DNA of 43,932 nucleotides. Source: Bacteroidales bacterium (lineage in GTDB: Bacteria; Bacteroidota; Bacteroidia; Bacteroidales; UBA932). Position numbers and translations under genes: made by a program. The notes under the pieces are model-generated. The model was not told where the DNA came from. It searched no databases and saw only the letters and a list, made by a program, of their open reading frames with translations. Where the stretch lies: contig JAGBVR010000012.1 of the NCBI GenBank assembly GCA_017630215.1, positions 1-43,932 of the forward strand, given 5' to 3'. Below are positions 2,547 through 43,932 of this stretch, in pieces; position 1 is the stretch's first letter, and every line of letters starts with the position of its first letter.

Positions 2547-3167
2547 TTATTTATACTTGACTATTAAATCTGTAATAATTGTTTCGGAATTTTTCTTCGC
2601 CTCACGAAATAATATATATATCAGCAAACTCACTAATATCAAAATAATCAAGATTAAAATACTGCCACACAAACACCCATAACAACTGACTACTCGACAA
2701 AATGATGAGATTAAAAGAATGAAAGCAAGTATGGCATCCCCAACAAGTCCTTCATATACTGCACTCATAACCCACAAACGATTATAGAAATCGTAAGATT
2801 TTCCATTACTATCGTTTCTAAGATTATCCCAATACTGACTAAACAATGCATCTATTTCTTCATTTGATTCAGAAGTAAATCCATGTTTTTTGAATATCTG
2901 ATATTTATATTTTTTATGCCGAAAGAGATCCTGCCTAATTGATCGACCTATAGCAAACATTATAAGTCCGAAGATATATATGATAAATATGATAAAAAAC
3001 CAACTTATATTAATATTTAATAGTAGGTCAATATTATTGTATAAGCTCCAAATGTAAATCAACATATATGCTGTTACTCCTGAAATAACAAAAGAGAAAT
3101 CAAACACGCTAAATACATCTGCTATTCTATCTACAATTTTATTTAGTGAAGTATTCATAATTATCAA
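2547..3167 (-). CDS. Small membrane protein of the RADAR locus (RdrC/Csx27 or RdrD/SLATT type)
   Basis: The 206-residue protein has two hydrophobic helices in the N-terminal half (VISGVTAYMLIYIW and WFFIIFIIYIFGLIMFAIG) and a further long hydrophobic pair in the C-terminal third (AILAFILLISSF and ILILIILILVSLLIYILF), with a basic cytoplasmic-looking segment between them. It is the last gene of a three-gene operon behind RdrA- and RdrB-like genes, 51 nt after the deaminase stop. RADAR loci often carry a third gene for a small membrane protein, either Csx27-like or SLATT-domain. I cannot tell which from sequence alone. A role in membrane disruption or triggering is inference. The start could also be the second methionine at 3158. 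Confidence 0.65.
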   Translation of the reverse strand: MIIMNTSLNKIVDRIADVFSVFDFSFVISGVTAYMLIYIWSLYNNIDLLLNINISWFFIIFIIYIFGLIMFAIGRSIRQDLFRHKKYKYQIFKKHGFTSESNEEIDALFSQYWDNLRNDSNGKSYDFYNRLWVMSAVYEGLVGDAILAFILLISSFCRVVSCYGCLCGSILILIILILVSLLIYILFREAKKNSETIITDLIVKYK

Positions 3168-3218
3168 GATATTGAAGTAAATGTTAGTATAAATACATTA
3201 AAAATATAAATATAACGA

Positions 3219-5723
3219 TTAATTAAATTTATATATCTGAGAGTTCTTATCCAACTTTTCAATTACACTCATCGCTTGATTTCTACTCACATGATGTACA
3301 TATACTAGTTTACAGTATATGTTTGAGTATTCATTGTAAATATTGGTGGCGAATATTCCAGGATCATCTGTACCAACAACAATAGGCGGTATAGGATTAC
3401 CTTCATTTTCCCATTTAATCCAATTCCACAGGTGATATGTATCATATGTATGATGATGCCCGATTCTCACATTGCTCGTGGGAAGTGTTTCTATTACGAT
3501 TTCCTTCTCGTTCAAATACCGCAAAAGCATCAATTGTAATTCTTCCAGATCTAATTCAGTAAAGATTTCAGTTGTTTTCACCTCAATTATTTCATCATAC
3601 TTCTTTCTGAAATTTGGACAATGATATTGCCTTAGCATTGTCATTCTTTCATTATCTTCATTTATATGATCACCACAATCACATATATCATCCTCGGAAT
3701 CAAGACTTAGTCTATTGAAAACTTCACACCATTCTTCGTGATTATATAGCGACATATTCTTTACGCTTTCCTTATTCCCAGCAAAAACATGGAGTGGACA
3801 TAAGCGACGAAGTTTCCAGACCTCACTTATCAATTCAATGGAATAAGAATGACTATATATACTATAATATAATTCGTGAATTTTCACTACAAGATTATTA
3901 ATTGTATGTTTTAGCTTATCGTTTGAATACTTTGTTATGATATTATATGCGAAAACTAGGTCGTCAAGATATTCCCCTTTGCGCATATAAATACATTCAC
4001 CGACGTTTTCAATCCATTGTTTAGGTGACACCCCTGCAGCCGTAGCATGTCCTATGCGATCTCCATAGCTGAAATCCAAGAAGTCTACAGCCTCGTAGAT
4101 ACTTCTAAGGCCTCCTAAAAGATGAAAGAAATCCTCTCCTGCGTGATATGTGAAGTGGTTGAAACCTCGCCTTTTAAGATAACGGAATGCAGGTGCAAAT
4201 ACCTCTGGAGGAGCATCAAATTCACTGGCAGCAGCATCTACTCCAATAATATGCCTTGAAGCAGGTGAATTGTTGTCCTTCATGTGTGCAAGCACATTCG
4301 CCCTTTCCCATATATCTTTACGCAACTGTTCATGCCTGATCAGTGTTGGGGCATTATCTTTCTTTTTTATAAAGTGAGCTATCAATTTCAACTCAGGAAT
4401 TTGTTTGTGATCAGATTCATACAAGTTGTCAAGATCTTTCCAACAATTCTCCCAACCTTGAATTATATTGGATATGAGTTGTTCATTTTCTTGTGTTGAC
4501 AATTTCGGAGAAAAACGTCCTTCCACAAAAGATATATTACAACCGCGATTCCCACACAATTGCAAAAAACGTGTCTTATAATCAATTCTCTCACAATTAT
4601 CACGAATTCCATTCATTGTATATTTCTGAAATTCTTCAAATCCATAATCATGCTTTTGTTGTACAAGAAGACGATTAAAAAATCCGAGTATTAGTAAATA
4701 TAGGTGAAATGCAGCAGCTACACTTTCATTCTGACTGTCGACTAAGTATCCCAATACAAGAATATACATCAGCCCCTCTACATTCAATGGAGTCCCATAT
4801 TTAGTTCCCCCTTCAATAGTAATTGCAGCAAACGGATTTTCTATTCCATCATTAAGTTTGTCATTGCCATTTATGAGAAAGGAAATGACTTCCGACAAGT
4901 CTTTTGCATTGAAAAGTTGTTGTATATTTTGTTCTTTACCTTGTTGTCCTTGATGTTGTGACTCTTCTTTATCTCTTCCTATATTACAAATGTGGCTCTC
5001 GAATAAGACCATATATAAGTATTGCCGTATCCTTCTTGCCACTAATAGTAATTGCTCCAATTTCTCAGTGCTCATTGGAGCTAAATCTTGCTCTATCTGC
5101 TCTTGTGCAAGACTATTATTAGTGATAGAATCATTGTACAAATTCAAAATTTTCTGCGGATACATCATCAAGTCTTGCCAAACAATATCAGCTTCTGTGG
5201 AGCCATTTAAGTGAATGTGCAAATCGTGAAAGCCTTGCTGTTGATTCACAATATGCGCAATTTCAGGAATATACGGATATGGTAAAGCCGTATATTTAAC
5301 ATTGGGAAGAATAGTTTTGAGACAATACTCTCTTATTTCAGATATGTCGGCATTCACACACAATGGTTTCTTTATATGCAAGAATGCCATTTGCAGAATT
5401 AGAGGAGGAATATATGTTATAAGTTCTTGCCACGAATTTTGTTTTGACTGCTTTACATATATTTGCTCATTAATTATCTCCAAATGTTCGTCAGCCAACT
5501 TGTAAAGTCCTTTCGTTAAAAGAGACGGAAGCGATTCGATTCCTTTTAAGAAATAGCTCTGATTCACCCTATAATAATGATCTGGAACATTCTTTTCTTC
5601 ACTACGCAGAAGTAGCAGCAAACGTCGTCTTACATCTGCAAAGGACGGCACTTTGCCTGATATATACTCGTTAAGAGATAAACTATCAATTAGCAAATAT
5701 CTTATTATTGAGTTTGTTGTCAT
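3219..5723 (-). CDS. rdrB: RADAR adenosine deaminase RdrB-like
   Basis: The 834-residue protein carries the spaced metal-binding motifs of the adenosine deaminase superfamily: HxH in FHDLHIHLNGSTEAD (His 169 and 171), YHAGEDF near residue 528, DRIGHATAAG shortly after, and GTDDPGIF near residue 782. It is far longer than ordinary adenosine deaminase (about 350 residues), as expected for RdrB, which assembles into large shells with RdrA and deaminates adenosine or ATP during phage infection. Its ATG overlaps the RdrA-like stop by one base (TAATG), so translation is coupled. All catalytic motifs look intact. The large insertion between the first and later motifs matches RdrB rather than a housekeeping enzyme. 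The gene is AT-rich compared with the tra genes, a sign of separate origin. Confidence 0.85.
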   Translation of the reverse strand: MTTNSIIRYLLIDSLSLNEYISGKVPSFADVRRRLLLLLRSEEKNVPDHYYRVNQSYFLKGIESLPSLLTKGLYKLADEHLEIINEQIYVKQSKQNSWQELITYIPPLILQMAFLHIKKPLCVNADISEIREYCLKTILPNVKYTALPYPYIPEIAHIVNQQQGFHDLHIHLNGSTEADIVWQDLMMYPQKILNLYNDSITNNSLAQEQIEQDLAPMSTEKLEQLLLVARRIRQYLYMVLFESHICNIGRDKEESQHQGQQGKEQNIQQLFNAKDLSEVISFLINGNDKLNDGIENPFAAITIEGGTKYGTPLNVEGLMYILVLGYLVDSQNESVAAAFHLYLLILGFFNRLLVQQKHDYGFEEFQKYTMNGIRDNCERIDYKTRFLQLCGNRGCNISFVEGRFSPKLSTQENEQLISNIIQGWENCWKDLDNLYESDHKQIPELKLIAHFIKKKDNAPTLIRHEQLRKDIWERANVLAHMKDNNSPASRHIIGVDAAASEFDAPPEVFAPAFRYLKRRGFNHFTYHAGEDFFHLLGGLRSIYEAVDFLDFSYGDRIGHATAAGVSPKQWIENVGECIYMRKGEYLDDLVFAYNIITKYSNDKLKHTINNLVVKIHELYYSIYSHSYSIELISEVWKLRRLCPLHVFAGNKESVKNMSLYNHEEWCEVFNRLSLDSEDDICDCGDHINEDNERMTMLRQYHCPNFRKKYDEIIEVKTTEIFTELDLEELQLMLLRYLNEKEIVIETLPTSNVRIGHHHTYDTYHLWNWIKWENEGNPIPPIVVGTDDPGIFATNIYNEYSNIYCKLVYVHHVSRNQAMSVIEKLDKNSQIYKFN

Positions 5724-8569
5724 TATTTTGATGCATTAATTTCTTTTTTTACATCTTTCCAAGTCTTATTATCACCTTTACAATAATTCTTAAGTTTTTC
5801 AATCATAGTTACATGTGGACGCTTAATGAATAAATCTGAAATCTCATCTCTAATCTCATCCACTTCCTTATCAGCTAATAATTGAGGCGTTTTATATCTA
5901 GTGGCCAGTCTATCTATAGTTTTTTTTGATTTTTCACCTTTAGCAAGAGAAAATGTGATTTTATTATCTTTCTTCAAATCCTTTTTACTACCATATATAC
6001 TAACTTGTTGAAGTTCAATGTGAACGGAATGTTCTTTGCACCATTCTATAATTTTACTTTCATCAACCCTTGAATTCGTCTTTTTTATGAAAATTGCTAA
6101 ATTATTCCATAATTCAATTAATTCATTTTGGGATCTTTGAGATTCCGATGTTTCGCTATTTGCATGACTCAAATATAATATGAACAGTGGGCATGCTAAT
6201 AACCATTGCGAAAAACTCAACTTATCCCTATTAGCGGGTTCCCGATTTACTTCCTTTAGGTTATTTATGAAAATGGTATTTGTTTCCGAAGGATTATTGT
6301 TTGTTAGGTTTAAGCTATTAATGTTTTCTTTAACATCTTCTATTAGAACAGAATTCATAACGATAACAATTCTTCTATGCATAGCATCTCCTAGGTTAGG
6401 AATTTCATCAGCTATGACTTTATCATCAAGATTCCTCATTGCATAAAATGAGCGTGTTGCAGCTTTCCCAATTAAATGTGGTGGCACACATTCGGGACAA
6501 TCATCCATCCAATCGCACAATGCTTCAGCTAAATCTAATTCCTCATCTTTCTGTTCCTGTTTGATAATAGTATTATATCTATACGAGCTATCGGACACTT
6601 CTAATGATCTCTCAAAAACAGGCATTACATTATCCTTGATTTGAGATAATTCTTTTAATAATACTTGTATATCATTTATTCTATTTTCTCTATTTTCCTG
6701 ATTTTTCTTTATGACATTATAGCGTTTAAGCAGTTCCACGATCGTTCCTAATAATGTATAAAAGGAATAAATAACGATAGACTGTTGCTTATGTGCAAAC
6801 AAGGCTATTGACATTGGAAAACAGGCAAGTTGCTTTTTCATTAATGATGCATCTTCAAATGCAACATCTATTCTATCCTGTGTTTCTAACGAAGATTTTT
6901 TTGCATACTCCGCTAGACCTTTAAGTATTATTGTACCGCCCCATGGAGCTTTGTTTTCTGAACCATTGTTATTTATACTGGCCCTTATATAAGTTGACAA
7001 GTAACTGCAAATATCTCTATAAACTTTGTTCTGTCCAATAAATGAGTAATCTGATAAGCCTTCAATTGTTGGAACAAGTGCTGTATCTTTTTTTTGATCG
7101 CTACAATATGGCATCATGGTGAGGAGGTTCTTTATAGTCGCAATCGCAATCCAGTATTCAAAAAACATTGAGGGGTTGTTCTTTGAATGCTCAATGAACA
7201 TCGTATATAAAGAAAATAGAACCGCATTATAATTAACATAACCAGATGTCGGTAACAACTGATATGTTTCATTTAATATTTTGTTTTCTAGCAAAAACTT
7301 ATGGGTTATATAGCAAAAATCATTTGACTGTGATTTTGCTTTTTCCACATCAATTCCCAATTCATACATGTCACTAACAAACGTATCTGTAATGTCCAAC
7401 AAACTGGCTCTATCTCTTTTATTTGTCATACTTTTGTAATACTCAAATAGTTTTATAAATTGAATTTGAGTCCTTAAAGGAAGAGTTAAAAGGTAAGATA
7501 CGACAGAATGCGCTTCATATTTATTATGAATTCCCCAAGCATTTAGCAATTCAATATAGTGAGTATAGATATCATTGCTCTCATTATTGATAGAAACTTT
7601 TAGACCTCGATTATTTAACATTTCTCCAATTGTCAATAGATGTATACGATTAGGAGCTTTCATGATTTTCTGCATATACTGACTCTCTATTTCTGTCACC
7701 ATTTCATCAAATGACTCTATTCTTCCCTGTATTTCTCCTTCCCATTTCAACAATTCACTCCCTAAATTTTCCCACTGAAATTTCCGGATTGCTTTAGAAA
7801 ACAATTTAATGTCTCCACTTAAAAGAGTAATTATATGTGGTGAAGTAAGGTATTTTCGTATAGTTTCTAGTACCTTCCACCCGTTATTAAAATTTACATC
7901 TATATCATCAAAGGCTATAAGAAATACCTTCTTTCCCAATATTTTGAGTGCTTCCTCTAAAATGCAATTGAAATTCTTTTCAAGTTCTTTTGCAGCTTTT
8001 ACAGCTTCAAGCCCCTTTTTCATCACATGCTCTGGATCATGCCAATTTGAATACAATGAGGCATTATCTATATCAATTGAAGGTAAGCCTGCTGCTAATT
8101 TCTTTAGTTTATCATCCCAGCACTTCCTTTGGCGATACTCTCTACAATATGGATCACATTCATTTTTGCTGATTTTCTTTTCGACTTTATCAGTAATTAG
8201 AGAAATTAATGTTAAAAATATATGCCCTTTTTCCTCAATAAGCGTAGGATCTATAAGTTCTATTATTTCAATATCTTTATTTCTCTCTTTTTCACAATAA
8301 TGTAGAACACTCATCAAAAAAGATGTCTTTCCACTTCCGCGTGACCCTAAAATAGTAATTGTATCATTATAACGACCACGAATCAATGAATCTTTACTCT
8401 CATTATCCTTTATTTTACTATCTATGAGTTTTCTTACTCTATCAAATTCCGCTTTATGAATAATATCTGTTTCTTCAAAAGAGCAGGCATTCATACTTTT
8501 GTTTAAGTCAATAATAATTTTGTTGCTTTCCATATTCCTAAGGTTAAATTTTAGTTTGTTATTAATCAT
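5723..8569 (-). CDS. rdrA: RADAR ATPase RdrA-like
   Basis: The 948-residue protein has an N-terminal P-loop domain with Walker A GSRGSGKT (residues 75-82) and Walker B KKVFLIAFDDIDVN near residues 213-226, followed by a long helical region without a recognisable domain. Length, ATPase at the N terminus and the one-base overlap with a giant adenosine deaminase fit RdrA, the ring-forming ATPase partner of RdrB in RADAR. In that system the pair blocks phage growth through deamination of adenine nucleotides or RNA. The start at 8569 lies 26 nt after the remains of a YhcG-like gene; an in-frame ATG at 8533 (MESNKIII) is an alternative. The gene is AT-rich, and both nucleotide-binding motifs look functional. 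Confidence 0.85.
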   Translation of the reverse strand: MINNKLKFNLRNMESNKIIIDLNKSMNACSFEETDIIHKAEFDRVRKLIDSKIKDNESKDSLIRGRYNDTITILGSRGSGKTSFLMSVLHYCEKERNKDIEIIELIDPTLIEEKGHIFLTLISLITDKVEKKISKNECDPYCREYRQRKCWDDKLKKLAAGLPSIDIDNASLYSNWHDPEHVMKKGLEAVKAAKELEKNFNCILEEALKILGKKVFLIAFDDIDVNFNNGWKVLETIRKYLTSPHIITLLSGDIKLFSKAIRKFQWENLGSELLKWEGEIQGRIESFDEMVTEIESQYMQKIMKAPNRIHLLTIGEMLNNRGLKVSINNESNDIYTHYIELLNAWGIHNKYEAHSVVSYLLTLPLRTQIQFIKLFEYYKSMTNKRDRASLLDITDTFVSDMYELGIDVEKAKSQSNDFCYITHKFLLENKILNETYQLLPTSGYVNYNAVLFSLYTMFIEHSKNNPSMFFEYWIAIATIKNLLTMMPYCSDQKKDTALVPTIEGLSDYSFIGQNKVYRDICSYLSTYIRASINNNGSENKAPWGGTIILKGLAEYAKKSSLETQDRIDVAFEDASLMKKQLACFPMSIALFAHKQQSIVIYSFYTLLGTIVELLKRYNVIKKNQENRENRINDIQVLLKELSQIKDNVMPVFERSLEVSDSSYRYNTIIKQEQKDEELDLAEALCDWMDDCPECVPPHLIGKAATRSFYAMRNLDDKVIADEIPNLGDAMHRRIVIVMNSVLIEDVKENINSLNLTNNNPSETNTIFINNLKEVNREPANRDKLSFSQWLLACPLFILYLSHANSETSESQRSQNELIELWNNLAIFIKKTNSRVDESKIIEWCKEHSVHIELQQVSIYGSKKDLKKDNKITFSLAKGEKSKKTIDRLATRYKTPQLLADKEVDEIRDEISDLFIKRPHVTMIEKLKNYCKGDNKTWKDVKKEINASK

Positions 8570-9108: not shown

Positions 9109-10080
9109 CTAAATGAGTTTCATCATTGAGCGTCTTCCACGTTTATACTCGTCATATTGATCCTTAAGTATATTCGCAGATTCACTAAAATTATTCAGCA
9201 ATACGTTCAAATCTGACTTGCTACTCTCCTTAATCAAAGCGTCAAGTTTCGTAATATGAGACGCACTGTTCGATTCATCTGGATTATCAAGTTCCAAAAC
9301 TTGTTTAAGGTCAATCTCCCTATTGTTAAGATTAAGATATGTCACAATACACATCAGCAATAACTCTAACGATTCCTTCAAAGTTTCAGGAATATCTTGT
9401 CCAGTAGTATCTCTAAACACATCTTTATAGTCTCTATCCTTCAATCTTATATCAGAACAAAACTTAATTAGATCTCGTGTCGTCCTTACAGCAACATTGT
9501 CTATTTTTTCATCGTTATCTGCATTTAACACATATTTAAAATCGACACCTTTATTAAGTTTGTTATTAATCTGCAATACGCATTCAATTAGTACAAAGAT
9601 ATTAGATGTTGATAATACCGCGTAAGTATGTGACTGAATAGAATCGAACACTTTCATATATGTACACGAAGACTTACATATCCACCCCAAAGCCCATATT
9701 GGCTTATTCTGTTGACATAGCATATATGCTATCATTCTACTATCATTCGCATATGCCTTAAAGATTTTTCCATGAGTCTTTTTTATTGACTCAGAAAAAT
9801 CCTTATCGTAGTATTTCTTTACGGCATCTTCTGCAACAGAATATATATGTGTCTTTGATATCATCCAAGGGACAACCACAGACATTGTTATACTCAATGT
9901 GACACAAGACAGAATCAAACTATTAACAGATGTTGCGGCAATAGTTGATTTACAGCAACAAAAATAGGAATGAATGACAGTACTAAATATTGCTATGAGA
10001 GTAACGCATGCCAGAAAGATAATAATGTAGAGGACGTATTCTCCTCGTCGAACTGTATTATTTACATTTTTCATTTTCAT
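9109..10080 (-). CDS. Unknown protein with two N-terminal membrane helices
   Basis: The 323-residue protein has two membrane segments near the N terminus (YVLYIIIFLACVTLIAIF, residues about 16-33, and SLILSCVTLSITMSVVVPWM, residues about 54-73) and then a soluble, mostly helical and charged domain of about 240 residues. A cysteine cluster (YFCCCKS) lies between the helices. I recognise no family. It stands alone between the YhcG remnant and traN, in the same direction as both, and its composition is closer to the cargo than to the tra genes. It could be another defence or exclusion protein of the cargo region, but nothing in the sequence proves that. Confidence 0.6.
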   Translation of the reverse strand: MKMKNVNNTVRRGEYVLYIIIFLACVTLIAIFSTVIHSYFCCCKSTIAATSVNSLILSCVTLSITMSVVVPWMISKTHIYSVAEDAVKKYYDKDFSESIKKTHGKIFKAYANDSRMIAYMLCQQNKPIWALGWICKSSCTYMKVFDSIQSHTYAVLSTSNIFVLIECVLQINNKLNKGVDFKYVLNADNDEKIDNVAVRTTRDLIKFCSDIRLKDRDYKDVFRDTTGQDIPETLKESLELLLMCIVTYLNLNNREIDLKQVLELDNPDESNSASHITKLDALIKESSKSDLNVLLNNFSESANILKDQYDEYKRGRRSMMKLI

Positions 10081-29237: not shown

Positions 29238-30668
29238 TCAGTCTTTTATTTGCCAATATCCATTCTTAGAAGCCCCCACAAACTCTATCTTATCCTTCAT
29301 CCGAGCCAATTGTCTTTCAATAGTTTTAGTGCTGACTCCACAATGTTCGGCTATCTCAGCACGAGTAATCTTAGGATTCTCTGTTACTAAAGATAATATC
29401 TTATATGCTAGAGAATCTGAATCTTCCATACGGAATTTCATATCCACCACATCATCTGAATTGTACACTATTACTTTAAAGGTCGTATAATCGTTCAAAA
29501 CATACTCAGCGGGTTTACAACTATATTGTTCCAGAGTCTCACGCACAGTCTTAAGACCTATTCCGAACTGATTTACGTAGCCGAGAATTTTCATCGCTGA
29601 TGCAATCAAAGGATTACGGTAGTCTGTCTCATTCGGAAAGTTCTCAATATTCGCCCTACCATAAAGGTTGCCTGGATTATCAATCTCTATCCTGTCGCTG
29701 TATTCATAGAAACGTATAGGAGAATTGGTCCCTTCGAAACTACGGTGCATAATGGAGTTCATTACAATCTCTCGCATAGCCCTATAAGGATAATTGATCT
29801 TCATATCCTCTCTCATCATCGTCACATATACGGGACGTTGATTCTCTATGGTGTAATGTACGAATACATCAATATCCTCAAGAGTCTTCAGAAGGTTGCC
29901 CTTGAAAGCGACTTCTTTCAGTACCTTTGTTGCTCTATGTGTTCCTTCAAACTTCACATACTGAACATATGCACCTCCGATAAACAATGTCGGAGCTTTA
30001 CCCAAGAGCAGCATACCGAAATTAGTCGGACAATCTTCTGACTTATCGTACAGTCGAAGAGAAGCAAGCTGTGACTTGACATCTCGGTTGTCGTTCTTGA
30101 GAAGCTCTGGGTCTATTGCCTTAGGCAAATACTTAATTCTGAATGCATCAAGATCCAAATCATTTATTGTTGAGCCATAACAAGGCTGGGTCTCAAAAGG
30201 AAGGAAGTTGGCAACACGTTTCTCCATCAGGATTCTTTCATCATCCTCATTCGCAATAGCCTTTCTTGGCCCGACTCTGATCCAAATACGTCCTTTATAT
30301 CTGACCGGTGTCAATTTAGATGGCTGCACCTCGATAACTGCCACATCTCCTTCTGGAAACGAGACTTTATAGACACTCATAGACGGAGCAGGAAGTATAT
30401 TGCCCTCGCTACGTAAACTTGAAAGGTTCTTCAACAGTTTATCTGTAGCCTTCAGACCGCTCAACGTTCCCTTATCGTACGCACCGATAAACAGATATCC
30501 CGGCAGACCTGTGCTGCAAATATCATTTGCAAACGCACATATCGCCTGTGAGAACTTTTCCGTATTATCTGTCGATATAGTCCTCTCAACTCTTTCATTC
30601 TCAAGATCGAGCAATAATTCTTTTACCTCCTCTGCTGTCAGCATATGCCTTCGTTTTTTGTATTCCAT
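29238..30668 (-). CDS. AlbA_2 (Schlafen-type) DNA-binding regulator with HTH
   Basis: The 476-residue protein has an N-terminal AlbA_2 domain (FSQAICAFANDICSTGLPGY, with GRIWIRVGPRKAIANEDDER), a middle region with PYRAMREIVMNSIMHRSFEG and GLKTVRETLEQYSC typical of the HATPase-like domain of RecG-like regulators, and a C-terminal winged helix (ITRAEIAEHCGVSTKTIERQ, ending KNGYWQIKD). Such proteins act as transcription regulators or, in some cases, as defence effectors. It stands alone on the minus strand between the RadC-like and RHH-like genes. Start could also be ATG 30644. Confidence 0.72.
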   Translation of the reverse strand: MEYKKRRHMLTAEEVKELLLDLENERVERTISTDNTEKFSQAICAFANDICSTGLPGYLFIGAYDKGTLSGLKATDKLLKNLSSLRSEGNILPAPSMSVYKVSFPEGDVAVIEVQPSKLTPVRYKGRIWIRVGPRKAIANEDDERILMEKRVANFLPFETQPCYGSTINDLDLDAFRIKYLPKAIDPELLKNDNRDVKSQLASLRLYDKSEDCPTNFGMLLLGKAPTLFIGGAYVQYVKFEGTHRATKVLKEVAFKGNLLKTLEDIDVFVHYTIENQRPVYVTMMREDMKINYPYRAMREIVMNSIMHRSFEGTNSPIRFYEYSDRIEIDNPGNLYGRANIENFPNETDYRNPLIASAMKILGYVNQFGIGLKTVRETLEQYSCKPAEYVLNDYTTFKVIVYNSDDVVDMKFRMEDSDSLAYKILSLVTENPKITRAEIAEHCGVSTKTIERQLARMKDKIEFVGASKNGYWQIKD

Positions 30669-37207: not shown

Positions 37208-37242
37208 TTTTGTAAAAACGATTAAAAATATCATTATATTTG
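37208..37242 (+). promoter_or_regulatory. Bacteroides-type promoter of the cargo operon
   Basis: TATATTTG (37235-37242) matches the Bacteroides -7 consensus TAnnTTTG exactly, and TTTTG (37208-37212) can serve as the -33 box with 22 nt between them, slightly long. The ATG at 37258 is only about 10 nt after the expected start of transcription, so the leader would be very short. Confidence 0.6.
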
Positions 37243-37257
37243 CAAGTTATATGAAAA

Positions 37258-38403
37258 ATGATGATAGATAAAAAAGAACATATAACAACTTTACGAACCC
37301 AATCTCGTAGTATTGTTGGCTTGCATAGACCTTTTAATAAGCCGCTAAAAAGTCTATGCTGGGTTTGTTCATACGCTAAAAAATGGTCAAACAATATAAA
37401 TGATAACTTCTATTATTGTTTCTATATACATCATGTTAAAGAGATTATAAGACATCAACATATGACCAATAAGTGGAATGAGGGCTGTATTAGTCTGCAG
37501 GATGCAATGGTTGTTAATGAAATAATGTCAAAATCTAATTTGAGAGTTCGTATAGTAGAATGTTTGCATAAGAGAAATACAGAGGAAGATAAGTTAATAT
37601 ATCAGACATACAAAAAAGCCAGTTATTACATTTCATTGTCAAAAAAACTAGGATTATTGGATGCGAATTGTAGACCAACAAGTGATGGCTTACAGTTAGC
37701 AGCCGTTAATAGTAATTTTTACGTATTAAATACAGATGAGAAAAAACTAATTCTTAGTTATTTGCTTGAAGTTAACCCTGACTTAATGATTGCATTAATC
37801 ATTACTCAGAGTGAGGTTGAGCAAGGAAAGTACCCTTCACATTTATCTCTAATTTTTCAAAAGAGTCAAGGAAAAAACTTTGATAAAGGTTATATAAGGA
37901 GTTTTAAACATAATTATTTACCCGTTATGACCTCATGGTTTTCACAGTTGAATATCACAAAGAAAAAAGGGGGGCTGAAAAAAGAATGGGAAATTTTCAT
38001 GCAAAGCTATCCCACGTATTATTCTAAGTATAAGGAACAACTATCAGCTTATAAGGGGTTTAAAGAAGGTGTTTTAAAACAAGAATTGGCAAAGAAAAAA
38101 AGATATAAGAAATTTACCGATATCTACAATTCATTATATAAACAGGGACAAGCTGATTTAGGTTTTGTTAACCTATATGATATAATGTCAAAAATGCGTA
38201 TGGGATATGAGCGATTTTCAAAATTTATCAATGATTTTTATACTGAGAATAGAAAGAAGGTAATTATCTTATTTTCTAATACAGTCTCATCTATTGATAA
38301 ACGTCCTAGATTTAGGATTGGAGACAAAATAGTACTTAAAATTAAATTAATTAAAATGATAGATTATGAAGTTGGAGACACTTTGGGAGAATTTAACGCC
38401 TAA
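37258..38403 (+). CDS. Cargo protein 1: winged-helix-like protein of unknown function
   Basis: The 381-residue frame opens right after a good promoter. An alternative start at ATG 37462 (MTNKWNEGCISLQDAM) would give 313 residues and a more ordinary N terminus. The middle has SYYISLSKKLGLLDANCRPT then SDGLQLAAVN, which looks like a winged helix, and the C-terminal half is basic and helical (KKRYKKFTDIYNSLYKQGQA). I recognise no family. It shares an operon with an ATPase, a nuclease and a methyltransferase, so a DNA-binding or specificity role is plausible. The gene is clearly AT-rich compared with the backbone. Confidence 0.65.
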   Translation: MMIDKKEHITTLRTQSRSIVGLHRPFNKPLKSLCWVCSYAKKWSNNINDNFYYCFYIHHVKEIIRHQHMTNKWNEGCISLQDAMVVNEIMSKSNLRVRIVECLHKRNTEEDKLIYQTYKKASYYISLSKKLGLLDANCRPTSDGLQLAAVNSNFYVLNTDEKKLILSYLLEVNPDLMIALIITQSEVEQGKYPSHLSLIFQKSQGKNFDKGYIRSFKHNYLPVMTSWFSQLNITKKKGGLKKEWEIFMQSYPTYYSKYKEQLSAYKGFKEGVLKQELAKKKRYKKFTDIYNSLYKQGQADLGFVNLYDIMSKMRMGYERFSKFINDFYTENRKKVIILFSNTVSSIDKRPRFRIGDKIVLKIKLIKMIDYEVGDTLGEFNA

Positions 38404-39880
38404 CCCTGAGAACATCAATACAATAAAGAAGGATTTAAGCGTTGGCATTGCACCACACTTGCCGTATTTCATTATAGGTTTATATGATATAAAGTCTAAA
38501 CTTTATAACTATTTGACTAATATTGATACTAGTTTCCAATTTTGCTTGATAAAAGGACAATATGGAAATGGTAAGACTAATTTATTGAAATATCTGGAAT
38601 ATTTCTTTGATGTGCATTCGGAATATAATGTTCATTGTGAAACTTGGAGAGCAGATGTTGATAAGTATGATCTTAATTTATTTTTGCTATATATTTTGCA
38701 ACAACGTCATGCAAGTATTTTGCATAGTTTCTTAAAATTATCATCTGAAGAAGTTTTAAAAGAAGCTTGTAATAACTATAAGGGTGGCTTTTCTGTCCTT
38801 AAAAGCTACTCAGAAGTCATATGCGCACATAAGGACAATGATGATGCTCTTACAGAAATAATACAACTTGGAACTGGAGTTAAATACGACAAGCGTTCTT
38901 TTGATAAGTACTATCTAACAAAATTTTCAGATTATAATAGACACGAGGTGCTAGTGTTCTTTTTGAATATTTTAGCACAAAACAATTACTATATTTTATT
39001 CTGTATAGACGAACTAGAAAAAATCGAAGAAAAATCTCGCGCGCGATTCCAATCGTATTTAACGTCATTTAGAGAATTAATCGACATGTCAGGGTTAATA
39101 AAAGGGCATATGATTATAGCCTCAATGACGGATGCTGGGAAATTTTCATCTATGCCTCTAGAGGCATATAATCCAGCATTTGCGAGAAGAATTGTATCTT
39201 CGACTTATGAACTTAAAAGTATTACTAATACTGAAGACATTAAACAGTTAGCATTATCACTATGCACAATACTACAGGAGTCGTGCAAAGATACAGACAT
39301 TGACTTAATTGTTAGTAAAGTTGTAAAACAGCACTTATCTCACACAAATGAGGTAGTCATTAGTTTGTACAAGAATCTTACGGAATGCAACTATAAGTCG
39401 TGGAGGGACAAACTTCATGAGGCAAATCTAGATATACCACTACAGCAACGTATGCAAGCCTTATACGAAGAAGGCGTAGACATTCGTATAAATTCGAAAT
39501 TTTTTGCTCCTCTCGAAAATTATATTAACATCGTTTGTCAGAATCCGAATGAATATCAGATAAAAGCTCAAATGTATCAGACAATTCGATCTGTTGATAA
39601 ATTAAGTTGCTATATCTTTTTATTCACGACAGATTATGATGCTAACCTAAATAGAATAAAAAACGTAAACCAATTATTCCCTAACGATAAGCTATATATT
39701 TTTAAGCCTGAAGGTTTGAGTATTTCAAATTCTGTTTTATTAGAAGAAGGTCTTAACAATATTGAGGATGTTGTAGTCTACAATCCAATTGAATTAATGG
39801 CTCTGCTGACATTGTTTGTTGAGAATTACGATAATGATACCTTAAAGGATATAATTGTTGAATGTACTAAGGGCCTATAA
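38366..39880 (+). CDS. Cargo protein 2: P-loop ATPase, BREX-ATPase-like (DUF2791-like)
   Basis: The 504-residue protein has Walker A in FCLIKGQYGNGKTNLLKYLE (about residues 62-75) and Walker B in YYILFCIDELEKIEE (about 209-223), followed by HMIIASMTDAGKF, a sensor-like stretch, and FARRIVSSTYELKSI. The GxYGNGKT and DELE forms resemble the DUF2791/BrxD type ATP-binding proteins. No PglZ or helicase gene is nearby, so it is not BREX. It begins 38 nt inside cargo gene 1. It may be the energy-using switch of the module. Confidence 0.7.
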   Translation: MKLETLWENLTPNPENINTIKKDLSVGIAPHLPYFIIGLYDIKSKLYNYLTNIDTSFQFCLIKGQYGNGKTNLLKYLEYFFDVHSEYNVHCETWRADVDKYDLNLFLLYILQQRHASILHSFLKLSSEEVLKEACNNYKGGFSVLKSYSEVICAHKDNDDALTEIIQLGTGVKYDKRSFDKYYLTKFSDYNRHEVLVFFLNILAQNNYYILFCIDELEKIEEKSRARFQSYLTSFRELIDMSGLIKGHMIIASMTDAGKFSSMPLEAYNPAFARRIVSSTYELKSITNTEDIKQLALSLCTILQESCKDTDIDLIVSKVVKQHLSHTNEVVISLYKNLTECNYKSWRDKLHEANLDIPLQQRMQALYEEGVDIRINSKFFAPLENYINIVCQNPNEYQIKAQMYQTIRSVDKLSCYIFLFTTDYDANLNRIKNVNQLFPNDKLYIFKPEGLSISNSVLLEEGLNNIEDVVVYNPIELMALLTLFVENYDNDTLKDIIVECTKGL

Positions 39881-39882
39881 TT

Positions 39883-41637
39883 ATGTTTGATAGAAATGAA
39901 CTTTATAGAATATATAAGTTTTCTTTACCAATTTTTGACATTTTAGTTCCTTATTGGAATTTATATGTAAGATTTAAAGGGATCGATGTTATTAAATCTT
40001 TGAACTTTCCAGAAGGATTTGAGGAATATTCAGATAAATGCTCGCTTATTTATCATGAGCATTTATCTGAAATTGAAAAAACAGAAGGTGATGTTGATGC
40101 CATTGCATCCATCGAAGAAACAACATACAATCAAGTATTACAAATTGTCACAGAATATATTTGTTTAACCATACTTAATAATGAGCAATTTGGGAGAACT
40201 TTCAAAAAACGTTTGTTTTTAATTCTTATAGAAGGTGAATCATTACTCTGCATAACAAAGGATTGTGATGAGGAAAAAATGGAAGAATTATTGATTAGTT
40301 TTCTAAATAGATCTAATCCCATCAAAATATTACTGAATATTTTAGATGCAGAAAACGACACTTGGGCAGATGAAATGATTAATAGTGGGCTTTATGATAT
40401 TGCTGCTAAGAAAGCAATATCGAGTGTTGACATTCGTTCAATGCATGCTCCTATATATTGTTTAAGTGATCTTCAGCGTTCATTAGACGGTTGCATTTTT
40501 GGCGAAGTAAATTCAACAAACTGTTGGATCAACTATAATTTATTAAATGAACATCTAAACAAGGATATAACAGAAGTTGAGAGCATTAAATACTTTTCGA
40601 CGAACTCTAATGAATCTTTATTAAACGCTCATGTAATAATTTTAAATGATTTGGTTATTCCTTTAATCAGTGATTTTAAAAAACAATATCCGATAAAAAT
40701 GAGTGGTATATGGAGAGAATTTAAAAGTCATGTTTATCATCATAAAACAAACACAACGGAGAATACTACTCGTTCTGCAAATCAGAATTATTTTTTGCAA
40801 TTGACAAAAGACGAAACTTTTACTGATAAATTATTTTATTTAGAAGATAACCTATTTGTCCCAGATGAACATTTCAATAAAATTCAGGGACTAGAGGAAT
40901 TTTTCAATGATATAATTATCGTTGATGGTTTATCTGAACTCGATAATTATGAGTTTTTTTCTGCTAATATAGGTAAAGCAGCCCCATTCATTGGTATACA
41001 TAAAAAGGATAAAGCAGGATCTCAATCATATAAACTACTACATTACTTGCAAAATGAAGGTGGCAAATTGATGAATTATCGTGGCAACAACCAAAAGCAT
41101 AAGTGTGCTGGACGTAAAGCTAAGATATTGAAGCCTGACATCGCATTCTATTATCTCCTAAGGTTTTATGAGGATTTTACATCGCTTGCTTTGAATGAAA
41201 TTCGAGACAATAACAAAAGTATTGACTTTATAACTAACCAAAATGTATCCTATAATGGCCAACGAAATGAAATAGATGTAATAGCATTTAATGGCAGAAA
41301 TATATTTATCATTGAACTGAAAACTAACTTAACAATAGAATCCATTATTTCATTCCAAAAGAAATGTAATAGATGGCTAAAGCAAAATGCTGATATATCA
41401 CCAAGCCTGAAGTTTATAATTGCTGGTAGTCGTGGAAAAGAAACATTGAATATATGTACGTCAAAAGTAATAGAAGCAGATGATGGGGTAAACAATGCCC
41501 CCCTAAATCCGACTTATACTATTAGTGTACCACTCGATAATGGAGAGGATTTGTTGTGTTTCACCGAATCGTCATTTACAAGACTGAAAGATAGATTATC
41601 ACAAATATTGATAACTAATGAGACTCCCAATAACTAG
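39883..41637 (+). CDS. Cargo protein 3: PD-(D/E)XK nuclease-like protein
   Basis: The 584-residue protein has a long N-terminal region (about 1-440) with no motif that I recognise and a C-terminal nuclease core NEIDVIAFNGRNIFIIELKT (about residues 460-479). The Asp of NEID and the ExK of IELKT are the catalytic set of the PD-(D/E)XK family. A helix with FQKKCNRWLKQN follows. It starts 2 nt after the ATPase stop and overlaps the methyltransferase gene by 20 nt. It is probably the DNA-cutting effector; the N-terminal part may sense or recruit. Confidence 0.7.
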   Translation: MFDRNELYRIYKFSLPIFDILVPYWNLYVRFKGIDVIKSLNFPEGFEEYSDKCSLIYHEHLSEIEKTEGDVDAIASIEETTYNQVLQIVTEYICLTILNNEQFGRTFKKRLFLILIEGESLLCITKDCDEEKMEELLISFLNRSNPIKILLNILDAENDTWADEMINSGLYDIAAKKAISSVDIRSMHAPIYCLSDLQRSLDGCIFGEVNSTNCWINYNLLNEHLNKDITEVESIKYFSTNSNESLLNAHVIILNDLVIPLISDFKKQYPIKMSGIWREFKSHVYHHKTNTTENTTRSANQNYFLQLTKDETFTDKLFYLEDNLFVPDEHFNKIQGLEEFFNDIIIVDGLSELDNYEFFSANIGKAAPFIGIHKKDKAGSQSYKLLHYLQNEGGKLMNYRGNNQKHKCAGRKAKILKPDIAFYYLLRFYEDFTSLALNEIRDNNKSIDFITNQNVSYNGQRNEIDVIAFNGRNIFIIELKTNLTIESIISFQKKCNRWLKQNADISPSLKFIIAGSRGKETLNICTSKVIEADDGVNNAPLNPTYTISVPLDNGEDLLCFTESSFTRLKDRLSQILITNETPNN

Positions 41638-42655
41638 GTATTACGGTTCAAAACGTAAGTTAATTAATAAAATATGGGAGGCATTAAACGATCTCCAAAT
41701 CGAATTTGACTCTGTGCTGGATTTATTTGGTGGTACGGGAGTTGTGTCATATTTTATGGCTCAAAAGGGTAAACATGTAGTATACAATGACATCTTCTCC
41801 TTTAATTGTGAAATAGCAAAGGCATTACTATGCTCTAGCCGAGGAGTCTTTTCAGAGTCTGATGCTTTATGTCTTTTAAATAAAGTTGCAGGCAGGGAAT
41901 ACGATAATATTATAGCTGAAAATTATATTGATATATACTACACAGATGAAGAGAATAGGATCATTGATACAGTAATCCAGAACATACCGTATTTGGAGCC
42001 AGAAAAACAAGCTAGTGCATATTATGTGTTATTTCAAAGCTGTATTATAAAGAGGCCATTTAATTTATTCCACAGAAAGAATCTTAACTTAAGGACGAAT
42101 TTTGTCAAAGCAAACTTTGGCAATAAAAAAACATGGGAACAATCTTTTGAAGACTTGTTTATTAAATTTACACGAGAACTCAATGAGCTGCAGTTTACAG
42201 TTTTACCACAAGTCGAGATTACGAATTTTTCAGCATTGAATTGCAATCGTCACGCTGATGTGGTTTATATTGATACACCCTACTTTCCGAAAGAAAATGG
42301 TGGTTCAATAACTTATCATAGCAGATATCACTTCCTTGAAGGTCTGATGAATTATGCTGCAATCCCTAGTCATATAGATTATTCTAAGGTAAATTTAGAA
42401 ATTAACATATCAAGGAATTTGGAATTTGAAAGAAGAAGTTGCTTTATTCATGAATTGGATCAGTTAATAAATATGCATAGGGACTCAATAATTGCCCTGT
42501 CGTATACAACTGAAGGATATCCATCAATTGATGAATTGGAGGCAATTATTAGGCGTTATAAAGCAAGAACACATGTGTGTTATTTGGGTCAGCACAGTTT
42601 TGCCCTAAATCGAAATAATGCGGGACGTCAAGAAGTATTAATAGTTGGTATTTAG
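41618..42655 (+). CDS. Cargo protein 4: D12-class adenine-N6 DNA methyltransferase
   Basis: The 345-residue protein begins RYYGSKRKLINKIWEAL, the start motif of Dam/D12 methyltransferases, then has the SAM-binding VLDLFGGTGVVSYFMAQKG (about residues 35-53) and the catalytic DVVYIDTPYF (about 214-223; DxPY form DTPY). Length is close to other D12 enzymes. It would methylate adenine in a short site, protecting self DNA. It ends the cargo operon. No separate restriction enzyme of the usual type II kind is present; the nuclease is in the preceding gene. Confidence 0.85.
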   Translation: MRLPITRYYGSKRKLINKIWEALNDLQIEFDSVLDLFGGTGVVSYFMAQKGKHVVYNDIFSFNCEIAKALLCSSRGVFSESDALCLLNKVAGREYDNIIAENYIDIYYTDEENRIIDTVIQNIPYLEPEKQASAYYVLFQSCIIKRPFNLFHRKNLNLRTNFVKANFGNKKTWEQSFEDLFIKFTRELNELQFTVLPQVEITNFSALNCNRHADVVYIDTPYFPKENGGSITYHSRYHFLEGLMNYAAIPSHIDYSKVNLEINISRNLEFERRSCFIHELDQLINMHRDSIIALSYTTEGYPSIDELEAIIRRYKARTHVCYLGQHSFALNRNNAGRQEVLIVGI

Positions 42656-42769
42656 TTTATTTGGATTATTATTTCTATTTTTGCTGTAAACTATGACAGT
42701 GGTCTTGGTAAGTTCTTTGAATTCGATTTGGTAAGTGCTGGGAAAGTGGTGTTGAGGCGCGGAAAGTAG

Positions 42770-42892
42770 TCACATTCTGTCGTATTTGACGCAACTTTTA
42801 CCTACCAAGAAAGTTACCAAATTACCCAAGAATCGCCATACAACGTAAGTAGAATGCGCACAATCACATTCTTCAACGAAGAGGAATACTAA
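42770..42892 (+). pseudogene. Possible C-terminal fragment of an interrupted gene
   Basis: A frame with no start codon, after a stop at 42767-42769, reads SHSVVFDATFTYQESYQITQ then ESPYNVSRMRTITFFNEEEY and stops at 42890-42892. It is followed 35 nt later by a strong terminator. This is what the 3' end of a host gene cut by integration would look like, but the frame is only 40 codons long and may be chance. Confidence 0.3.
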
Positions 42893-42927
42893 TGAGGTAA
42901 CCGATTGGTAGCCAAATAAATGAATTA

Positions 42928-42969
42928 AACGGTGAGAATAACTTTTGCTATTCTCACCGTTATTTTTTA
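42928..42969 (+). terminator. Strong intrinsic terminator
   Basis: AACGGTGAGAATA (42928-42940) and TATTCTCACCGTT (42949-42961) form a perfect 13-bp stem with an 8-nt loop, followed by ATTTTTTAT. It ends transcription in the + direction after the cargo and the 42770-42892 fragment. Confidence 0.85.
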
Positions 42970-43430
42970 TACCTTTTTGGTACCATTCAGTAACCAAAGT
43001 TATCCATAAGTTATCCTCAACTATTCCTAAAATGTCCAAGTTGGATGGCGGGGAGTGAAGTATTTATTTTTCAATACCCCAGTGAGTGTTATCCGTTTCT
43101 AAAAAATACTTAACTTTGTCGGGTCAAGCGGTGTAAGCCCTTGATATTACATATTGTGAAAGTGTTTTTCGAAAGTCCTTTCTTGAAAATGTGGTAGTTT
43201 TCATATAGCAGGACGGCACGGAACAGCACTCACTTTCGTATAGATACCAATGACGGGTCGTGTTCTGCGTACCCGATATCCCATATCTATCCGAGTGTGA
43301 GGTATTGTGTCGTTTATTGCTATAGAGGTCTTACCACAACCTTCAAGAAGATAAACGGAAGTCAGCTCCACACTTTCTTTGTATATATTCCTCATCATCT
43401 TGGAGTCTGGGTGATTTAAATTATTGCATA

Positions 43431-43553
43431 ATGATAGAATTTTTGTACAAATCTCCAGATGTACGTGTAATGGAGATATTGGCAGAGGGCATTTTGTGCT
43501 CATCCCCTTCATTGGAAGACATAGGTTCAGAAAAAGACGAAATAGATTGGTAA
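43431..43553 (+). CDS. 40-aa peptide gene upstream of a fimbrillin-like gene
   Basis: ATG 43431 to TAA 43551-43553 encodes MIEFLYKSPDVRVMEILAEG then ILCSSPSLEDIGSEKDEIDW. Short acidic-ended peptides of this type (…VxVLE…GxLCxS…) often stand just before fimbrillin-like lipoprotein genes in Bacteroidales. It ends 10 nt before the next start. The preceding stretch 43000-43430 holds nothing that I can call; a minus-strand frame at 43201-43512 has no support. Confidence 0.65.
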   Translation: MIEFLYKSPDVRVMEILAEGILCSSPSLEDIGSEKDEIDW

Positions 43554-43563
43554 ATATTACGAT

Positions 43564-43932
43564 ATGAAAAAGACATTCATTTGGTTAGCCGCATCACTGT
43601 TATTTATAGTGGTTGGCTGTGTGGAAGGGCTTCACGAGCCAGATGTGACTGTAACATCTTCTGAACAACTTCCAAACCTGACCGCTGGTTTTGCGGAAGG
43701 GGAGACAAAGACATACGTGGAAAGTGGTAAATATCTTCGTTGGCACGAGGATGACCGCTTGACCGCATTTTTTGGCAATACGCTGAATTGTCAGTATAAG
43801 TTTAATGGCGCTACGGGAGATAATAGCGGCTCGTTCTCTTATATATCAAGCGGCAACTTGGAGACTGGCAATGCCCTTGACCGCATCTACGCAGTCTATC
43901 CATACGATGAGACTACAACAATAACAGATGAT
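43564..43932 (+). CDS. Fimbrillin-like lipoprotein, truncated by window end
   Basis: The visible 123 residues start MKKTFIWLAASLLFIVVGC with a lipobox, then FAEGETKTYVESGKYLRWHE and DRLTAFFGNTLNCQYKFNG, the usual N-terminal domain of fimbrillin-family surface lipoproteins in Bacteroidales (KTYVE…G..LRWHxDDRL). The gene continues beyond the window. It differs from the four fimbrial proteins of the tra region, and its position beyond the terminator and repeat cluster suggests it is host chromosome. Confidence 0.75.
   Translation, partial: MKKTFIWLAASLLFIVVGCVEGLHEPDVTVTSSEQLPNLTAGFAEGETKTYVESGKYLRWHEDDRLTAFFGNTLNCQYKFNGATGDNSGSFSYISSGNLETGNALDRIYAVYPYDETTTITDD

Follow-up and report, generated by a model that had tools for sequence, protein, structure and literature searches.

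A four-gene module at positions 37258-42655 of a 43,932-nucleotide (nt) stretch of DNA from a Bacteroidales bacterium (hereafter the window; G000:C12:1-43932, contig JAGBVR010000012.1, assembly completeness 57.8%) is conserved in other genomes and probably represents a restriction-modification (RM)-like defence. In this reading, the methyltransferase encoded by the module would mark the DNA of the host, while a helix-turn-helix (HTH) protein and an ATPase would license a Can2-like nuclease on unmethylated DNA. Gene content, gene order and conservation, the single clade formed by the methyltransferases, the catalytic residues and the fold matches form the basis for it. As laid out in a preliminary description of this DNA, the module consists of four intact open reading frames (ORFs) on the + strand, with junctions of -38 nt (genes 1/2), +2 nt (genes 2/3) and -20 nt (genes 3/4):

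37258-38403, + strand: gene 1, predicted BrxA-like HTH protein of 381 amino acids (aa) with a C-terminal winged helix and a conserved N-terminal LHRPFN...WVC stretch.
38366-39880, + strand: gene 2, BrxC/BrxD-family ATPase of 504 aa (PF10923; partial PADLOC matches to BrxD and SngB).
39883-41637, + strand: gene 3, protein of 584 aa with a C-terminal Can2-like PD-(D/E)XK nuclease domain; its N-terminal ~270 residues are unassigned.
41618-42655, + strand: gene 4, D12-class N6-adenine DNA methyltransferase of 345 aa (PF02086, 1.3e-15).

Co-occurrence in other genomes, which the preliminary description had named as the check on its proposal, was found for the same four genes in the same order. The productive route to relatives was a second scan of genome contigs with a methyltransferase alignment as the query; we inspected the best 80 of 418 confirmed loci, and the resulting counts are lower bounds. 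Gene 2 and/or gene 3 accompanied the methyltransferase at 5 of these 80 loci, while genes 1-3 were not matched at the other 75 (BLAST E 0.01, HMM E 1), some of which are shortened by contig ends. Genes 1-3 were present in the same order and on the same strand in an uncultured member of the Bacteroidaceae (L052), Pedobacter sandarakinus (L053), a Chryseobacterium (L054) and Parapedobacter defluvii (L063). A further contig, labelled Bacilli (L051), starts within gene 2; since it is merely 3.5 kb long and its gene 4 groups with that of the window, it may be misbinned. At another locus (L055), the contig extends just 136 nt upstream of the methyltransferase gene. We also searched with a profile of gene 2 alone and obtained matches in 4 of 231 genomes from the Pedobacter genome's family (2 of them new), in 2 of 148 from the Chryseobacterium genome's family (1 of them new) and in 1 of 126 from the L051 genome's family (none new). 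Each of the three newly found loci (L139, L140 and L141) contains genes 1, 3 and 4 as well, and as they were detected without a gene 4 query, they are free of ascertainment bias for this gene. Altogether, there are at least eight module loci besides that of the window, of which seven carry the full set and one is truncated by a contig end. The four genes stand together at all testable loci (8/8), the ATPase gene is present at every one of them, and gene 4 overlaps gene 3 in 8 of 9 loci. This linkage in other genomes argues for an arrangement beyond chance, and the four genes are a conserved module.

The module is rare in the sampled genomes. A search with gene 3 in 392 other genomes of the window's order yielded matches to the nuclease domain only, in 7 of them, and gene 2 had no match in 298 genomes of the window's family. 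Across 394 genomes of the phylum, gene 2 gave 13 matches, all of them short and weak (E 0.01-0.1); tblastn with genes 1-4 found no second module gene at these loci (about 3 kb each), the best other match being gene 4 at E 0.38, and ORFs were listed for two of them (L013 and L020). Nothing was found in the plasmid collection with gene 1 (from position 37516), gene 2, gene 3 or gene 2 of L053, and the phage collection, searched with genes 2 and 3 but not with gene 1, contained no match to either. Viral contigs yielded nothing with gene 2, gene 3 or alignments of genes 1 and 2, and nothing for genes 1-3 when gene 4 alone served as the query; a first scan of genome contigs, in which gene 2 had been aligned with two distant ATPases, likewise gave nothing for genes 1-3. 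At the Parapedobacter locus, a gene for a HEPN_LA2681 tetratricopeptide repeat protein (L063:1178-2704), a possible RNA-cleaving neighbour, lies immediately upstream of the module.

Family matches support the combination of a modification enzyme, an ATPase and a nuclease that had been proposed at the outset. PADLOC v2 returned a full-length match for gene 4 alone (MTase_II, 3.1e-45), and partial or weak matches for genes 1-3. Gene 4 carries the motifs FGGTG and DTPY, with D35, F37-G39, D219, P221 and Y222 invariant in 9 of 9 loci. In gene 2, the match to PF10923 covers the N-terminal part only; it exceeds the cut-off for five of the eight proteins, the window's own staying below it, and the E values of all eight run from 2e-9 to 0.015. 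Gene 2 contains GQYGNGKT as its Walker A motif, with lysine K70, and ILFCIDELEK as its Walker B motif, and the cores of the two, GNGK and DE.EKI, are conserved in 8 of 8 proteins. Most profile matches of gene 3 begin near residue 273, and its nuclease core NEID...IELK includes E463, D465, E478 and K480, invariant at 9 of 9 loci. The motifs listed in the preliminary description are all in place, their core residues are invariant in the relatives, and the catalytic residues are intact. The early guess of a winged helix in gene 1 was supported by modelling, in which the protein resembles BrxA-like HTH proteins. Searches of PDB sequences with genes 1-4 gave nothing convincing. PADLOC additionally returned weak matches over short stretches for relatives of gene 1 (PDC-M34B, 0.005; Cas7_IIId, 8e-4), gene 2 (ATPase-Toprim, 1.4e-4; AbiEi, 0.005; PtuA, 0.008) and gene 3 (Cas4_II, 0.0017).

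We considered whether an ordinary type II methyltransferase might simply lie beside an unrelated three-gene cassette, a chance neighbourhood that is already disfavoured and that we regard as very improbable. In a methyltransferase tree of 90 rows, relatives of gene 4 outside the module often adjoin EcoRV-like enzymes (50 of 90 rows), as a chance association would allow, and the tree of gene 4 differs from those of genes 1-3. Moreover, at L139 the module methyltransferase (L139:7415-8512) lies in the reverse orientation, linked to a Ham1/kinase gene and a GHMP-kinase-like gene. Against this stand the presence of gene 4 at each of the testable loci, its overlap with gene 3 at nearly all loci, and the grouping of the module methyltransferases as a single clade of nine (support 100/94), to which the L055 enzyme is sister.

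The history of gene 4 nevertheless differs from that of its partners. Genes 1-3 correlate closely among themselves (r 0.94-0.95), gene 4 less so with them (0.68-0.75); identity among the loci spans 48-71% in gene 4, 28-62% in gene 2, 25-62% in gene 1 and 17-48% in gene 3. The tree of genes 1-3 and that of gene 4 reject each other in the approximately unbiased (AU) test, with p values of 4e-57 and 1.5e-4, a mixed result; the conflict is clearest at L139, and L053 and L141 are also placed differently. From this conflict, notably at L139, we infer exchange of the methyltransferase inside the module clade, apparently at one locus and with genes 1-3 remaining linked. Such an exchange is most easily explained if the members share a target site. 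An operon of a D12 methyltransferase gene, a Ham1-like/kinase-like AAA fusion, a GHMP-kinase-like gene and a gene for a protein of about 234 aa recurs at L026, L027, L029, L124 and L139. Among six of the 44 matching plasmid records, the methyltransferase gene lies in the Ham1/GHMP operon in three, beside a type II endonuclease in two and beside neither in one; genes 1-3 were not found in these six records (tblastn E 0.1).

In the RM-like mechanism that we favour, gene 4 would, as its family suggests, methylate adenine at a fixed site in the host DNA. By analogy with BrxA and SspB, gene 1 would read DNA, and gene 2 would assemble on DNA with gene 1, in an ATP-driven assembly or scanning step like that envisaged for BrxC and SspC; both analogies draw on the available parts of PMC12839542 and PMC10853773. 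Gene 2 would then license gene 3 wherever the site is unmethylated, and the Can2-like PD-(D/E)XK domain would cut or nick the foreign, unmethylated DNA. Because the nuclease half of gene 3 resembles Can2, we considered both local and collateral cutting. Can2 and Card1 degrade nucleic acid without site choice. An abortive or collateral nuclease, in which genes 1 and 2 detect invasion or the loss of methylation and activate gene 3 without site choice while gene 4 silences the sensor, is accordingly a conceivable but rather unlikely alternative.

SspB and SspC assist modification by phosphorothioation, and genes 1 and 2 might by the same token load or target gene 4, leaving gene 3 to act alone on marked or unmarked DNA. 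In favour of such a helper function, the available parts of PMC12839542 equate BrxC with SspC and DUF4007 with SspB. However, relatives of gene 4 adjoin EcoRV-like enzymes at loci without matches to genes 1-3, and gene 4 has apparently been exchanged while genes 1-3 were kept together; we therefore think this explanation improbable.

On a bolder reading, which we hold to be less likely than not, the module could represent an undescribed class of ATP-dependent RM systems in which BREX/Ssp-type sensing, by the BrxA-like protein and the BrxC/D-like ATPase, is combined with a portable EcoRV-type methyltransferase and with a Can2-like nuclease. The CRISPR sensor half of this CRISPR-family nuclease would have been replaced, and the ATPase complex, not a cyclic nucleotide, would fire it. 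All members of this class would recognize one target site, and their methyltransferases would thus be exchangeable.

Among known systems, BREX and the DUF499-centred BREX-related systems (BR, 'Hma') share with the module a BrxC/BrxD-family ATPase and an adenine methyltransferase, and perhaps, going by the model of gene 1, a BrxA-like HTH protein; BR types 1 and 2 resemble it further in employing a PD-(D/E)XK or HKD nuclease, according to the available parts of PMC12839542. The module differs in that its methyltransferase is of the D12 class and its Can2-like nuclease is separate. The four genes gave no match to PglZ, a BrxX/PglX-type methyltransferase, BrxL or a helicase. PglZ was found in none of 20 ORFs flanking the relatives, and in the module's own genome (57.8% complete) the sole PF08665 match stayed below the cut-off (20.8 of 25 bits), in an ORF that we take to encode a phosphoglycerate mutase. 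Since no PglZ was found, we do not file the module as a member of BREX. The Swi2/Snf2 helicase that marks BR/Hma was neither among the four genes nor the best match of any of the 20 flanking ORFs, which cover the flanks in part.

Passages of PMC10853773 and PMC12839542 describe Ssp (SspBCD-SspE) as a winged HTH (wHTH) protein, an ORC/Cdc6-type ATPase, a modification enzyme and a nuclease, a composition that resembles the module by description rather than by sequence. Where Ssp has the 3'-phosphoadenosine 5'-phosphosulfate (PAPS) reductase SspD, the module has a methyltransferase: D12 homologues occur at 9 of 9 loci, and a PAPS reductase was matched neither in the four window genes nor in the 20 flanking ORFs. 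The nuclease of the module also differs from SspE. Operons of ORC/Cdc6, REase-ASCH and DndG-like triple-wHTH genes, described in the available parts of PMC10853773, likewise unite an ATPase, a REase and a multi-wHTH protein on mobile elements; those passages report an ASCH fusion and do not mention an adenine methyltransferase, and this comparison, too, is one of descriptions. By its PF02086 and MTase_II matches, gene 4 is a type II kind of methyltransferase, and it is 41% identical to the methyltransferase encoded beside an EcoRV-family enzyme in L037; given this relationship, a first candidate for its target would be GATATC, the site of EcoRV. In the module, genes 1-3, including an ATPase, stand in place of the EcoRV-like enzyme. 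Can2, Card1 and VC1899 are CARF-PD-(D/E)XK nucleases; no match to CARF was obtained for the N-terminal half of gene 3, and no cas families were detected among the flanking ORFs scanned. DISARM, MADS, Dnd, McrBC and type I RM were set aside, as their partner genes are not among the four; the preliminary description had reported the lack of PglZ and of partner genes for all of these but MADS.

Its further suggestion of an undescribed defence holds insofar as no complete named system in PADLOC v2 matched the module, but the parts are related to BREX and Ssp through the BrxC/BrxD-family ATPase and the BrxA-like model of gene 1. The available parts of two surveys (PMC12839542, PMC10853773) cover BREX, BR, Ssp, Dnd and HerA capture systems, and we found no description of the module in them or in the literature searched, whose scope excluded subscription papers, bioRxiv preprints and supplements. 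Within these sources the module is undescribed, and it is more aptly regarded as an RM-like variant related to BREX/Ssp than as a system wholly outside those families. If our interpretation is true, it would be a new type of ATP-dependent restriction. Phage restriction by BREX is still termed poorly understood in the available part of PMC11580459, and the module, as a four-gene relative that unites an identifiable nuclease with a small methyltransferase complete in itself, would offer a simple model for the roles of BrxA- and BrxC-like proteins.

The module is AT-rich against a GC-richer backbone, as noted earlier (GC content 0.314 versus 0.441 for positions 10001-37000). The RADAR region, the other AT-rich stretch measured, has a GC content of 0.327, and low GC is hence a mark of cargo in general here. 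The preliminary description had also assigned the module its own Bacteroides promoter, and a candidate is present upstream of gene 1:

37235-37242, + strand: candidate -7 element TATATTTG of a Bacteroides-type promoter, a consensus match only, with TTTTG at 37208-37212, 22 nt upstream.

The two elements are plausible as a promoter by their sequence. A consensus scan of the window with a 20-nt spacer, however, returned 21 sites versus 20.6 expected and none at the module, so that the result is mixed and such matches are no commoner than chance.

The module is cargo of a conjugative element. A TraG match exceeds the NCBIfam cut-off, matches to TraN, TraM, TraJ, MobA, MobB and MobC reach E 1e-12 or better under their NCBIfam cut-offs, and a relaxase and a coupling protein exceed the cut-offs of Pfam. 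We detected neither a tRNA in the window nor any exact repeat of at least 15 nt shared by 42655-43564 and the rest of it. The module rides this element alongside RADAR, the genes of which lie at 2547-8569 on the - strand:

5723-8569, - strand: RdrA (PADLOC).
3219-5723, - strand: RdrB, with an adenosine-deaminase domain (PADLOC).
2547-3167, - strand: weakly SLATT-like gene.

The window also encodes a Schlafen/AlbA_2-type protein (29238-30668, - strand). An ORF of 323 aa between RADAR and the tra genes (9109-10080, - strand), with no Pfam match and weak PADLOC matches only (HEC-01A, REase_II), is possibly another nuclease cargo gene.
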